From NCBI GenBank assembly GCA_009692465.1, contig SHZD01000027.1:1-42714 (forward strand): a stretch of 42,714 bases of DNA, given 5' to 3'. The DNA is from Myxococcales bacterium (GTDB taxonomy: Bacteria > Myxococcota_A > UBA9042). The notes beneath the pieces are model-generated. The model had not been told where the DNA came from and made no database searches. It saw only the letters and a program-made list of their open reading frames with translations. Shown here one piece after another: positions 19,844-26,692 of the stretch (position 1 is the first letter of the stretch; the number at the start of each line of letters is the position of its first letter). The translations under genes were made by a program, and so were the position numbers.

Positions 19844-21517
19844 ATGGGGTTGGCGCCTATGGCTGAACACGATTTGCAGACTGCGCTTGCCGCCTGGCGC
19901 CACACTACGCTGGGGGCTGCAACAAGAAAAGGCTTACGCAAGAAGCAGTTCCAGCGATCAACCTCGGAAACGATCGCTGACCTGTACACGCCTGCGGCGG
20001 ATCCTGAGTATTTGGCGCGGCTGGGTCTGCCGGGCCAGTTTCCGTATACCCGTGGCGTGCAACCGACGATGTACCGCGGGCGCCTGTGGACCATGCGTCA
20101 GTATGCCGGATTTGGCACTGCGACTGAGTCGAATGCGCGCTACAAGTACCTGCTCAATGCCGGCCAGACTGGCCTGTCGGTAGCCTTTGATTTGCCAACC
20201 CAAATGGGCTACGACCCGGACGACGCGATGGCGGCTGGCGAAGTCGGCAAGGTCGGGGTCAGCATCGCTAGCATCGACGATATGCATGAACTCGTTGCAG
20301 ATTTGCCCCTGGAGACCATCAGCATCTCGATGACGATCAACGCGACGGCGACGACATTGCTCGCCTATTTGGTGGCCGTGGCCCAAGAACGCGGCTTGGA
20401 CCCCAAACTGCTGACTGGAACGGTGCAGAACGATATTCTCAAAGAATACATGGCACGTGGTACGTACATTTACCCGCCGCGACCGTCGATGCGCCTGATC
20501 ACTGACCTTTTTCGCTGGTGTGCGACAGATGTGCCCAAGTGGAACACGATTTCCGTATCGGGCTACCACGTGCGCGAAGCCGGCTGCGATGCCGCTCAAG
20601 AAATTGCGTTCACGCTAGGCGACGGCATTGCCTACGTGCAAGCGGCGATTGCGGCAGGCCTAGATGTCGATTCGTTCGCAGGTCGCGTGGCATTTTTCTT
20701 CAATGGTCACAATAATTTCTTGGAAGAAATCAGCAAGTTCCGGGCGGCGCGACGCCTGTGGGCACACATCATGCGCGATCGTTTTGGCGCCAAGAATCCC
20801 GAATCGTACAAGATGCGCTTTCACACCCAGACCGCAGGATCAATGCTGACGGCACAGCAACCCGATAACAATATCGTACGGGTCGCTTTGCAGGCGCTAG
20901 CAGCGGTATTGGGCGGCACTCAAAGCCTGCACACCAATTCGCGCGATGAAGCATTGGGGTTGCCGACCGAGCAGGCAGCACAAATTGCCTTGCGTACCCA
21001 ACAGATTATCGCCTATGAATCGGGAGTGGCGGACGTGGTCGATCCGCTCGCTGGTAGCTATGTGATTGAAAACTGGACGGATGCCCTGCAAACGCGGGCG
21101 CAGGCGTATTTGGACCGCATCGATGCGTTGGGCGGGATGGTCGCGGCCATTGAGCAAGGCTATCCTCAGCGCGAGATTCAGGACAGCGCGTACCGTTGGC
21201 AACGGGCAGTGGAGGCTGGCGAGCAAGTTGTGGTCGGCGTCAACCAGTTCGCAGCGCCCGAAAGCCAACCGGCACCGGCGCTGACGCTCGATCCGCGGGT
21301 AGAGCGCGACCAAGTGCGGCGCGTGCAGGCGGTTCGGGCCAAACGCGATACGCAAGCGTGGCAGGCGGCGATGGTTGAGCTGGAGGCGGCGGCAAATGGC
21401 TCCGTCAACCTGTTGCCCGCACTGGTACGCGCCGTGCAATGCCGAGCGACGACGGGTGAAATCAGCCACACGTTGCGCCGAGTCTTTGGAGTGCATCAGG
21501 AAACTTTGGTGGTGTAG
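19844..21517 (+). CDS. Methylmalonyl-CoA mutase large (substrate-binding) subunit
   Basis: A 557-residue TIM-barrel acyl-CoA mutase without the C-terminal B12-binding domain, so it needs a separate small subunit not present in this window. Hallmarks are [13 protein letters not shown] (Tyr87), [39 protein letters not shown] (Arg205), [24 protein letters not shown] and [14 protein letters not shown]. The Tyr/Arg pair corresponds to the methylmalonyl-CoA-type signature (P. shermanii Tyr89/Arg207), not the Phe/Gln or Ile/Gln of isobutyryl- or 2-hydroxyisobutyryl-CoA mutases. It would interconvert methylmalonyl- and succinyl-CoA. The ATG at 19844 is used; the ATG at 19859 is possible. The kinase-fusion gene follows after 11 bp. 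Confidence 0.92.
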
Positions 21518-21528
21518 AAGGACTTAAG

Positions 21529-24249
21529 TTGATTGAGCCGATTCGTATTCACTGGAAGCAGACCATCGCCGCCCCCATCGACGAGGTTTGGGCGGCGTTT
21601 TCGGACACAGAGCGCATCAACCGCTTGGGCGGCTTGCACATGCAGTTTTCGTTATTGGCGCGCGGCGATGGCCGCAGTCCGCGCACTGGCGAACTGCGCC
21701 ACTTGGGAATGCGCGTGACTTGGAAGGAAAAACCGGTCACATTTACCGCGCCCAATCACTGCTGCATTGACCGCGTGTACGACGCGGGGCCGATTTCGCG
21801 CAGCCAGACTGAACTGTGGCTGCAACCGAATCCGGCGGGCGGCACTGACTTCACCTACGAAGGCCGGTTTACCCCCAAGTCGCGCCTATTTTCGCCGGCC
21901 ATTCGCCTCGACGTCGAAATGACGGTGCGGCCCAAGCTTGATCGGGCGTTCAAGGCCCTGATCGCGGCGCTCGAACACAATGCGGCCCTGCCCGATGCCC
22001 CGCCACCCAAGCTGAGCAGCGAAGCCGAAAAACGCTTGCAGCGCGGGATGGCCAAGATTGTCGAACCCGGAGTTGCCGAGCATTTGGGCGAGTTTTTGCG
22101 AACCGCGCCGATTCCTGAGCAAGTGCGGATGCAACCGCTTCTGTTGGCTAAGCGTTGGAAACTACCTGAAAAAGATGTGGTTGCTGGGCTGTTGCGCGCG
22201 GTAAGCGCCGGATTGTTGCAGGCACGCTGGGACGTCATTTGCCCGTCGTGCAAGCTACCTGCGGCCTCGGCCAAGACCTTGGATTTGCAGCGCGGCAAAT
22301 CGCATTGCGGGGCCTGCGAGGTCCAGTATGACGCCAGCTTGGCGGACTCCGTGGCGCTGTCGCTGCGACCGGTGGCCGAAATTCGGGCCCAACCTGAACG
22401 CATTGACTGCCTGTCGAGTCCAGGGCGCATGCCGCATGTGGTCAGCCAAAAGGTCGTGGCGCCCCGGCAAGAGGTGGAATGGCCGCTGACGCTGCTGTCG
22501 GGCAATTACCACATTCGCGGCTGGCCTAACTTGGACCAAGTGGTGGTCACCGTGCGCAGTGAACTCGCCCGCAGCGAGGGCAATGTGCTGGCCGGCCCCA
22601 AGGCCTTGACGCCGCCGACGCTGCGCCTGCGCGCTGGCCGGGTGACGCTGCGGGTGCGCTCCAAGATTGACGAACCGCTCAAGCTGGTGATTGAACGGGT
22701 GATGATTGCGCCCAATACGTTGACTGTTGGGCGGATTCTCGAGTGGCCTGACGTCGCAGCGCTGTTGCCAGCCGACTCGTTAGAACCGGGCTTGCGCATT
22801 GAACCTTTTAGCGGCCCCCTGCTGGCCATTCAGGTGTGCCGCGGCGGCGAACGTGCGGACAGCGTGGTCGGGCAAATCGTCCGGGCGGCCGGAGCCAACG
22901 CCTGTCAAGTGAGCAACGGCTGGGTGTTGGCGACGATGCCCAGTTGGCGGGCAGTGCACACGGTGGCCGACCAACTCCAAGGCGCGTTGTGGCAGACGGC
23001 GGCCGTCGGTATCGGCACGGTGGTGCAGTTGCACAGTGGCGACACCGCGATGGCCTCAGGTGCGGCGTTGCAAGAACTGGTGGCGCTGGCCCAGTCGGCA
23101 GAGCCGGGCCAGTGGTTAGTCGAAGGCGGCGATCGGCTGACGGAGGCCATGCGGCTGGTGGGGGCTTTGGTGCAAGTTCCGGCCACCGGTGGCCCAGCGC
23201 AGTTGACGCTGAACGAGCGCGAGGGCCCGCCGCTGGCGTTGCCGACGCGGGTGTTGACGGCGGCCCAAAGCGGCGATCTGATCGATGACCGCTTTGAGCT
23301 CGGCCAATTGGTGGGCAAAGGTGGATTCGGGCTGGTCTACGCTGCCCTAGACAAGGTGACCTCGACCCAAGTGGTGGTCAAACTGATGCGGCCGGAGCTG
23401 GCCGACGACGCGATCCAAGTTCAGCGCTTTTTCGACGAAGGCCGCTTGGCCGCGCGCTTGGAAGGGCCTAACAACGTGCAGGTTTATGAGTGGGGCATCG
23501 CCGACGATGGCCGCTTGTTTTTGGCCATGGAGCAACTCATCGGCCGTGAACTGGGCGAAGTGCTCCGCGACCTCGGCACCGTAGATCCGGTGCGCACCCT
23601 CAAGCTGTGTGCAGGCGCGCTGGCCGGTTTGCATCAGGCCCACAACCAAGGCTTGGTACACCGCGACATCAAGCCGGCCAATTTGTACCTGGTCCACGAA
23701 GGGACTGACGACGAAACCTTGAAAGTCATCGACTTTGGTATCGCACTGGACCTGACCGGGAGGATTAAGGCGCCCGAACAGGCCGGGGCGATCATTGGTA
23801 CGCCGATCTACATGAGCCCTGAGCAGGTGCGCGGCGAGCCGCTGGACTGTCGCACCGATCTGTATGCGTTGGGTATTGTGCTGTACGAATGCCTTTCTGG
23901 CGCTTTGCCATTTGCCGGACCGACAATGATGGCGTTGCTGTTGGCTCGCTTGACCCAACACCCAATCCCGTTGACGCGCAACTGCGCCCAGCCTTTACCC
24001 AATGGCGTGGCGCAGCTCGTGGATCAAGCACTAAGCCATGACGTGGAAGAACGGCCGACGGACGCGGAGGCCATGCGGCAATTGCTGTTGACTTTGGCAG
24101 TACAAGCCGGCGACCCAGCCCAGTGGTCGCGCTCGTGGCGGGAGCACAAGTCGGCGGCTACCCGCCTGCACGACGCGATGACGGCGGCAACCGTGTCCGA
24201 TTTATTCGTCGATGAAACGCCGTCTGAGCCCATGCAGAAGACAGATTAG
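21529..24249 (+). CDS. SRPBCC/DUF5939-like - degenerate cyclase-like - Ser/Thr protein kinase fusion
   Basis: A 906-residue protein from a TTG start with AAGGA well placed. Residues ~1-150 look like an SRPBCC/START-type lipid-binding fold (IHWKQTIAAPIDEVWAAFSD). Residues ~180-290 resemble the DUF5939 region usually found on class III adenylate cyclases, with a Cys4 zinc ribbon (C238, C241, C260, C263). Residues ~425-565 read like a cyclase homology domain without its metal-binding Asp residues (SGPLLAIQVCRGG, GWVLATMPSWRAV, VGIGTVVQLHSGD). Residues ~590-870 are a Hanks-type kinase with an intact core: GKGGFG (596-601), Lys618, HRD Asp713, DFG Asp735 and GTPIYMSPEQ. No transmembrane helix is seen. 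A cytosolic signalling kinase, apparently co-transcribed with the mutase; its partner is unknown. The pseudo-cyclase reading is inference. Confidence 0.8.
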   Translation: MIEPIRIHWKQTIAAPIDEVWAAFSDTERINRLGGLHMQFSLLARGDGRSPRTGELRHLGMRVTWKEKPVTFTAPNHCCIDRVYDAGPISRSQTELWLQPNPAGGTDFTYEGRFTPKSRLFSPAIRLDVEMTVRPKLDRAFKALIAALEHNAALPDAPPPKLSSEAEKRLQRGMAKIVEPGVAEHLGEFLRTAPIPEQVRMQPLLLAKRWKLPEKDVVAGLLRAVSAGLLQARWDVICPSCKLPAASAKTLDLQRGKSHCGACEVQYDASLADSVALSLRPVAEIRAQPERIDCLSSPGRMPHVVSQKVVAPRQEVEWPLTLLSGNYHIRGWPNLDQVVVTVRSELARSEGNVLAGPKALTPPTLRLRAGRVTLRVRSKIDEPLKLVIERVMIAPNTLTVGRILEWPDVAALLPADSLEPGLRIEPFSGPLLAIQVCRGGERADSVVGQIVRAAGANACQVSNGWVLATMPSWRAVHTVADQLQGALWQTAAVGIGTVVQLHSGDTAMASGAALQELVALAQSAEPGQWLVEGGDRLTEAMRLVGALVQVPATGGPAQLTLNEREGPPLALPTRVLTAAQSGDLIDDRFELGQLVGKGGFGLVYAALDKVTSTQVVVKLMRPELADDAIQVQRFFDEGRLAARLEGPNNVQVYEWGIADDGRLFLAMEQLIGRELGEVLRDLGTVDPVRTLKLCAGALAGLHQAHNQGLVHRDIKPANLYLVHEGTDDETLKVIDFGIALDLTGRIKAPEQAGAIIGTPIYMSPEQVRGEPLDCRTDLYALGIVLYECLSGALPFAGPTMMALLLARLTQHPIPLTRNCAQPLPNGVAQLVDQALSHDVEERPTDAEAMRQLLLTLAVQAGDPAQWSRSWREHKSAATRLHDAMTAATVSDLFVDETPSEPMQKTD

Positions 24250-24697: not shown

Positions 24698-26692
24698 ATG
24701 AAGTTGTCTCACTTGGGTGCATTGGTTTTGCCGGTAGTGCTTGCTCTTGGGCAAATTGGTCTGTCCCACAGCGCCGTTGCGGCGCCAAAACTGACCGCGG
24801 TCAACATCGACACCCTGCCGCTAGGTGCTGAGGTGACCTTGGTGGAGCCAGCGCCGGAAAAGCTGCTGGGAATCACCCCACTTAAGAAAATCAAAATGCC
24901 ACAAGGCGCGGTCAAGCTGCGCCTCAAGCTGCCCGGCTACGAAGAAAAAATGGAGACGATCACCATTGGACCCAAGGAAACGACGTTCAATTTCGAGCTT
25001 GTGCGCAAGATTGTTCCGGCGACCTTGGACCTGACGGGCGACGCCGCGTCTACCGGCGCCGATGTGGTCGTCGACGGCGACGTCAAAGGCAAACTACCGG
25101 TCAAAGTCAGCGTGTCGCCAGGCCGCCATCAGGTGGTCGTGCGCAAAACAGGGTATGTGTCGTGGGAAAAATGGGCCGATGTCACCGAAAACCAAACCGC
25201 GACCTTTGAAATCGCGCTCAAAGCGCAGGACAAACCAAAGGGATCACTGCTGATTTCGTCTACGCCGGCGGGTGCTGATGTGCGCTTGAACGGCGCACCC
25301 AAAGGCAAGGCGCCGCAAATGGTCGAAAACCTCGACGCCGGCAGCTTCGAAGTCGAGCTAAGTTTGGAAAATTATAAGCCTTTTCGGCAGTCGGTGGCAG
25401 TCGGCGAAGGCAAACGAGAGACGGTCTCGGGCACGCTGGAGCCGTTAGCGGTGGCGACGCCGGTTGGCGAGTTGACCGTGCTGTGCGATGCGCCCAAAGG
25501 CACCATCACCATCGATGGCGAAGACAAGGGTCCGCAGCCCGCCAAGGTTGCCGGCCTCAAGGCTGGAGAGCACATCGTCGAATGCACCGCGCCCGGTTAC
25601 CCCAAAGCCCAGCAAGTGGTTATCGTCAAGGCCGGTGAAACCAAAACGGTGCAACTGAGCCCCAAACAGGCGGTGGCGGCCAGTCGCGGCGCGATCAGTG
25701 TGGTGTGCAATGTCGCCACTGCCAAGGCCAAAATTGGCGACGGCGAAGCCAAGAAGACCCCGTGCCAGTTCGACGATTTGGCGCCTGGCAACCATCAGGT
25801 CACCATTACCGCCGATGGCTATGCGCCGCAGACCAAAACCGTCGCGGTGGAGGCGACCAAGACCACGGAAATCAAGTTCGAATTGGCGGCGATGGGCAAG
25901 ATCAAGGTGACGGTGGCGGTGGGCAAGCGGGCCAATGTGTACATCGACGGCGAGATTCGTGGTCAGGCGCCGCTGACGGTCGAAGTGGCGGTAGGCGCCC
26001 ACAAGGTGGAAGTCAAAGAAGACGGCACCGGTGTCGCCACCGAGAGCCTAGATGTGCCGGTGGTGGCCGGACAAACCGCCACCGTGGACGCTAAGCTCGT
26101 GCCGCCACCTGCGCCCAAACTGGTACGGCGCAGCAACCCGACCTCGGCGCACGTCAATGATGCCGGCAATGGCACGATTCAACTGGGAGTTGGTATTCCG
26201 GCGATCTTGGAGGCGCGGATTACCGCGGGCATCTTGGACAATTTGAGCGCGGGACTGGAAATTCGCAACACTGCAGCCGTACTGACCGAATTTGAACTGC
26301 AGGCGACCTACCGCTTGGCTGGCAGCAACGCCTTTGCGGTCGCCGCGATGGCCGGTTTGGGTGGCGGTCTGGGCGCCAGCGAGCGCAACTCGTTTACCAT
26401 CACCGCCAAGGGCATTGCTTCGCTGTTACTCGGTGATACTTCAGCATTTTCGTTGTACGCCCAGTATCGCTTTTTTACCGACAAGGTCCGCGCCACGGCG
26501 GATCGCAGTACTGGCTCGCAACTGCCGATCGGTTTGCAGGGTGAATTCATGTACTCCAACGCCATCAATCTGTGGGGCAAAGTAGAAATGGACTTTGCGT
26601 TCCCGGCTGGTCGCGCAATTTACAACGAAGTGGACAGCGTGCTGAACGGCAAAATTCGTGGCGGTGTAGGCCTGACTTGGCTGTTTAAGTAG
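24698..26692 (+). CDS. PEGA-repeat exported protein with C-terminal beta-barrel-like domain
   Basis: A 664-residue exported protein; the signal peptide ends near SAVAA (~29). Six PEGA-type beta repeats follow at roughly 30-88, 107-163, 182-235, 257-310, 331-385 and 395-450. Each has the pattern G-x-hydrophobic-V-x-S/C ... GA/K-V-x-DG ... K/G-x-P ... L-x-AG-x-H-x-V-x-GY; the third (LLISSTPAGADVRLNG) is the most canonical. After a Pro-rich hinge (VPPPAPK), residues ~485-664 are alternating amphipathic strands ending LTWLFK, consistent with a small outer-membrane barrel. PEGA domains are often surface or peptidoglycan-proximal. The upstream kinase gene is on the same strand but 448 bp away. Confidence 0.8.
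   Translation: MKLSHLGALVLPVVLALGQIGLSHSAVAAPKLTAVNIDTLPLGAEVTLVEPAPEKLLGITPLKKIKMPQGAVKLRLKLPGYEEKMETITIGPKETTFNFELVRKIVPATLDLTGDAASTGADVVVDGDVKGKLPVKVSVSPGRHQVVVRKTGYVSWEKWADVTENQTATFEIALKAQDKPKGSLLISSTPAGADVRLNGAPKGKAPQMVENLDAGSFEVELSLENYKPFRQSVAVGEGKRETVSGTLEPLAVATPVGELTVLCDAPKGTITIDGEDKGPQPAKVAGLKAGEHIVECTAPGYPKAQQVVIVKAGETKTVQLSPKQAVAASRGAISVVCNVATAKAKIGDGEAKKTPCQFDDLAPGNHQVTITADGYAPQTKTVAVEATKTTEIKFELAAMGKIKVTVAVGKRANVYIDGEIRGQAPLTVEVAVGAHKVEVKEDGTGVATESLDVPVVAGQTATVDAKLVPPPAPKLVRRSNPTSAHVNDAGNGTIQLGVGIPAILEARITAGILDNLSAGLEIRNTAAVLTEFELQATYRLAGSNAFAVAAMAGLGGGLGASERNSFTITAKGIASLLLGDTSAFSLYAQYRFFTDKVRATADRSTGSQLPIGLQGEFMYSNAINLWGKVEMDFAFPAGRAIYNEVDSVLNGKIRGGVGLTWLFK

Follow-up and report, generated by a model that had tools for sequence, protein, structure and literature searches.

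Receptor guanylyl cyclases carry kinase-fold and class III cyclase-fold domains in one sensor chain, in which the kinase is a pseudoenzyme and catalysis is left to the cyclase. PknB-type Hanks kinases couple an intact kinase with a sensor and are likely controlled by pairing, and class III cyclase domains also work as pairs, with a geometry set by upstream sensors. The 906-aa protein described here, encoded within a window of 42,714 nucleotides (the whole stretch of DNA analysed) from a Myxococcales bacterium, has the domain pairing of the receptor guanylyl cyclases, again with one partner apparently dead, but with the roles reversed, as a mirror image; it does not place an active cyclase behind a pseudokinase. 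It shares an intact Hanks kinase and a sensor with the PknB-type kinases, but lacks their PASTA part (score 243 against a cut-off of 450 for the NCBIfam PASTA kinase model), and its sensor appears to be cyclase-derived. The TOMM system kinase/cyclase fusion (TIGR03903) is also a kinase plus cyclase-type protein, but only the kinase part of the 906-aa protein matches it, with 152 bits against the NCBI cut-off of 706. Class III cyclases of the same phylum that contain DUF5939 (PF19363) share the order of SRPBCC domain, DUF5939 with Cys4 ribbon, beta region and cyclase domain, but they retain their catalytic residues and have no kinase, whereas the 906-aa protein combines a putatively dead cyclase with an active-looking kinase. 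The literature searched, with most subscription papers outside it, held nothing on DUF5939 or on a pseudocyclase driving a kinase, which is weak evidence of absence. As far as that literature shows, pseudokinases regulating active cyclases are textbook knowledge while pseudocyclases regulating active kinases are not, and the 906-aa protein is a seemingly new variant of the Hanks sensor kinases.

The gene is an ORF lying exactly at 21529–24249 on the forward strand, as do all features given below. The entire layout recurs in relatives throughout the family and the phylum, at identities from 70 down to 26%, which excludes chance or mis-assembly; a frame error or chance ORF was ruled out by the same relatives. 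At the N-terminus is an SRPBCC/polyketide-cyclase-like (START-type) domain (21541–21978, residues 5–150) that matches Polyketide_cyc2 (PF10604) over residues 10–149 (Pfam, E = 1.1e-9), and its model finds SRPBCC/PYL/Bet v 1 proteins as best PDB matches (Foldseek, E = 5e-7). The N-terminal half of DUF5939 follows, comprising a helical part and the Cys4 ribbon (22021–22383, residues 165–285). PF19363 matches residues 173–279 with E = 4.4e-12 and 46.2 bits against a gathering cut-off of 22.5, covering only positions 10–117 of the 281 in the profile, and the ribbon cysteines C238, C241, C260 and C263 are invariant among 20 aligned sequences. A first-pass annotation made from the sequence had proposed an SRPBCC/DUF5939-like part with a Cys4 ribbon and named a DUF5939 profile search as a check; both the domains and the profile match were recovered. 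Between residues 280 and 589 Pfam found no match. This interval holds a beta-rich C-terminal half of DUF5939 (22411–22713, residues 295–395; strands in the model), homologous to the corresponding segment of catalytic DUF5939 cyclases (hhalign E = 7.5e-23), then a degenerate class III cyclase domain, or pseudocyclase (22789–23163, residues 421–545), called from profile–profile, fold and selection evidence, and a poorly conserved linker of low pLDDT (23164–23274, residues 546–582). The Hanks-type kinase domain (23290–24093, residues 588–855) matches Pkinase (PF00069) over residues 590–851 (Pfam, E = 2.5e-40). It contains a GKGGFG G-loop, VVVK with the VAIK-type Lys, the alphaC Glu in FFDEGR, HRDIKPAN, DFG and SPE, and by these motifs is predicted to be catalytically intact, in agreement with the earlier annotation. 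A C-terminal tail without domain match (24094–24246, residues 856–906) is 55% identical to the nearest relatives.

Within the family, 15 of 22 genomes contained DUF5939, as did 117 of 379 genomes sampled from the phylum. Three layouts emerged from full-length loci: SRPBCC-DUF5939-cyclase (type A), which is the order that the annotation had given as normal for such N-terminal parts; kinase-SRPBCC-DUF5939-cyclase-like (type B); and SRPBCC-DUF5939-cryptic region-kinase (type C), to which the 906-aa protein belongs. The model of its whole N-terminal part reached only moderate confidence (pTM 0.62), and a Foldseek search with the whole 1–582 model returned only SRPBCC proteins among the best 50 matches, so the cryptic domain was modelled alone. 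The alignment contained the 906-aa protein and 19 type C relatives, and type A and B sequences were excluded to keep any resemblance to cyclases from being built into the model. From these kinase-fused relatives only, AlphaFold2 predicted residues 412–548 with a mean pLDDT of 92.3 and a pTM of 0.84, and the best 50 PDB matches to this model were all class III nucleotidyl cyclases (best match Rv1625c, E = 1.7e-5; Rv1900c, TM 0.54 on the target), the outcome expected from the proposed cyclase scaffold. The Pfam cyclase model matched none of the 20 rows, so that the domain is called by profile and fold methods. An ordinary HMM search using the catalytic cyclase profile left it undetected in most type C proteins, making profile–profile comparison necessary. 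With hhalign, residues 421–545 aligned to type A catalytic cyclase domains with E = 2.2e-5 (score 36.9) and to type B pseudocyclases, those with N-terminal kinases, with E = 1.6e-8 (score 55.5). In controls, 60 column shuffles reached at most 17.3 and 16.5, respectively, a reversed profile scored about 10, and unrelated stretches gave E values of 0.2–0.35. When a sequence profile was searched against PDB chains, the cyclases Ma1120 and Rv1900c aligned weakly (E about 0.1) but collinearly. These computations identify residues 421–545 as a predicted class III cyclase fold of cyclase ancestry.

With the predicted fold of the class III nucleotidyl cyclases, this domain lacks the residues that would make it an enzyme of that class. 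Both metal-binding Asp are absent at the aligned places, IQVCRGG standing where type A has FTDxxGST and VSNGWVLATM where type A has TIGDxxMxxF. A deletion removes about 18 residues from the helix-1 region, and the substrate-specifying Lys/Asp and transition-state Asn/Arg are absent. In the branch that contains the protein, nothing remains of the first metal Asp with its adjoining loop and helix-1 stretch, of the Lys, of the DYFG or of the Asn/Arg. The first-pass description of residues 420–570, a cyclase-like order without the metal-binding Asp, holds for the order and the missing residues; its boundaries need trimming to about 421–545, with the linker 546–582 beyond. Compared with the two nearest relatives, the pseudocyclase is 66% identical with a pN/pS of 0.44–0.46, comparable to the beta region and somewhat less conserved than the kinase; the linker falls to 32–41% identity with a pN/pS of 0.81–0.84, against about 70% and 0.2–0.5 for the domains. 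The pseudocyclase is under purifying selection.

Loss of the cyclase site went together with the presence of a kinase throughout the survey, in which some contigs end inside the gene and a few sites were unreadable. DUF5939 proteins without a kinase and with a detectable cyclase domain kept both metal Asp and the Lys in 79/79 cases (non-identical, across the phylum). The full catalytic set was found in 0/42 kinase-fused proteins (23 with an N-terminal and 19 with a C-terminal kinase); for most type C proteins, where the catalytic HMM gives no alignment, residue calls came from a merged profile alignment. Two N-kinase proteins, L073 and L154, retain the two metal Asp but have neither the Lys nor the transition-state Asn. 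Kinase catalytic motifs are intact in the B and C layouts with few exceptions: L090 and L078 have Cys or Gln in place of the HRD Arg, and L082 has DLG. As far as residue patterns can tell, kinase fusion is thus strictly associated with a dead cyclase in the DUF5939 proteins surveyed, a computational result that confirms the dead-cyclase-plus-kinase observation in a stronger form than first stated. N-kinase loci (L058, L069, L071, L073, L080, L086 and others) mostly keep DYFG, or EYFG/EFFG, and mostly have His or Glu at the position of the catalytic Asn; such regularity could reflect a new ligand site. Two loci (L091:4227–8612 and L167:583–2364) have the C-type platform and pseudocyclase with no kinase in frame or on the stretch examined (10 kb for L091). 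Cyclase loss may therefore predate kinase gain, or kinases were lost, and the pseudocyclase in such proteins may have another role or be older than the kinase.

Phylogenetic analyses favour, without proving, separate origins of the N- and C-kinase forms. Type C forms one clade in the DUF5939 tree (support 98), which still holds when three kinase-less or truncated members are included (100/99), and type B occurs in at least two places. The careful 52-row tree rejects a constraint that joins B and C (AU p = 0.0027); for the larger, quick 77-row tree a single origin of all kinase fusions stands unrejected (AU p = 0.066). In the kinase tree, C kinases apart from that of L082 lie among other kinases of the source genome and B kinases lie elsewhere, with union of the two not rejected (p = 0.17).

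We consider it likely that the 906-aa protein derives from a DUF5939 receptor of the adenylate-cyclase type and works as a sensor kinase, with the dead cyclase kept as a structural and regulatory part. SRPBCC domains commonly bind hydrophobic ligands, and here the domain would bind a small, probably hydrophobic, molecule. The ligand-induced change would be relayed through the Cys4/beta module to the pseudocyclase, which would pair or re-orient with its partner in the way of catalytic class III domains, and two kinase domains would be brought together or apart, setting autophosphorylation and substrate phosphorylation. Because types A and C differ mostly in their output part, the most economical view is that an unchanged ligand-driven shift in geometry now reaches the kinase through a cyclase fold that no longer catalyses. 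Ligand, dimerisation, direction of kinase control and substrates are what we infer for this protein. The cyclase platform may drive phosphorylation, and the re-purposing suggested in the first-pass annotation is supported.

The profile and fold results bear directly on whether residues 421–545 are instead an unrelated alpha/beta (ferredoxin-like) domain that merely resembles a cyclase. Ferredoxin-like folds are common and Pfam is silent here, but no other ferredoxin-like family appeared among the best 50 fold matches, the profile matches run in register across the catalytic segments far above their shuffles, and the domain occupies the same chain position behind the same homologous DUF5939 halves. 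This reading is very improbable, and we rejected it on the Foldseek and hhalign shuffle evidence. A cyclase-derived remnant might still serve as a passive relic or spacer, leaving the kinase controlled only by the SRPBCC/Cys4 module or its own activation loop, as its missing catalytic residues and its somewhat lower conservation than the kinase would allow. This seems unlikely given that the remnant is conserved and constrained about like the beta region, which the true spacer 546–582 is not, and that a phylum-spanning alignment yields a confident predicted fold. A decaying relic was rejected on the comparison of pN/pS and identity with the linker.

A slightly better case, though still a doubtful one, can be made for a pseudocyclase that binds a nucleotide (ATP, cAMP or other) without turnover and serves the kinase as an allosteric nucleotide sensor instead of a pairing module. 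The regular residue replacements in the N-kinase relatives do not look like random decay, and purifying selection on the domain is compatible with such a site, but little of a nucleotide site is left in the C-type branch of the 906-aa protein. Returning to the pseudocyclase as a pairing module, we lean modestly towards a wider proposal, a class of sensor kinases in which a fused Hanks kinase, at one chain end or the other, is switched by a class III cyclase domain that has lost catalysis, this conversion having happened on more than one occasion. Such a class would mirror the receptor guanylyl cyclases, with cyclase and kinase outputs mutually exclusive on one platform. A dead cyclase whenever a kinase is attached suggests that cells swapped second-messenger output for phosphorylation. 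The strict split between catalytic cyclases without a kinase and apparently dead cyclases with one is a natural experiment on a receptor changing its output currency, and allows a direct test of whether the pairing of class III domains is a general-purpose switch that works without cAMP. A further protein (L085:55–2769) joins the DUF5939 module to a pyridine nucleotide-disulphide oxidoreductase (Pyr_redox_2, E = 2.6e-45); with this third kind of output, DUF5939 looks like a general input module.

Upstream of the kinase-fusion gene, by 11 nt, lies a gene for the methylmalonyl-CoA mutase large subunit (19844–21517; PF01642, E = 3e-219). An AAGGA ribosome-binding-like site (21518–21522) directly follows the mutase stop, 6 nt before the TTG start at 21529. 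This gene pair, with 4–11 nt spacing, occurs in four genomes of the genus, namely the source genome and, by tblastn, L021, L022 and L023; the two genes may thus be translationally coupled in part of the genus. The mutase neighbour hints at an acyl-CoA-related signal or target, but other relatives lack it at this place. About 450 nt downstream, on the same strand, is a protein with six PEGA repeats (24698–26692) that was not found beside relatives of the kinase. A protein scan of the genome contigs gave one close relative only. The source genome has a single DUF5939 gene as far as was found, along with 63 kinase matches and about 17 cyclase matches.
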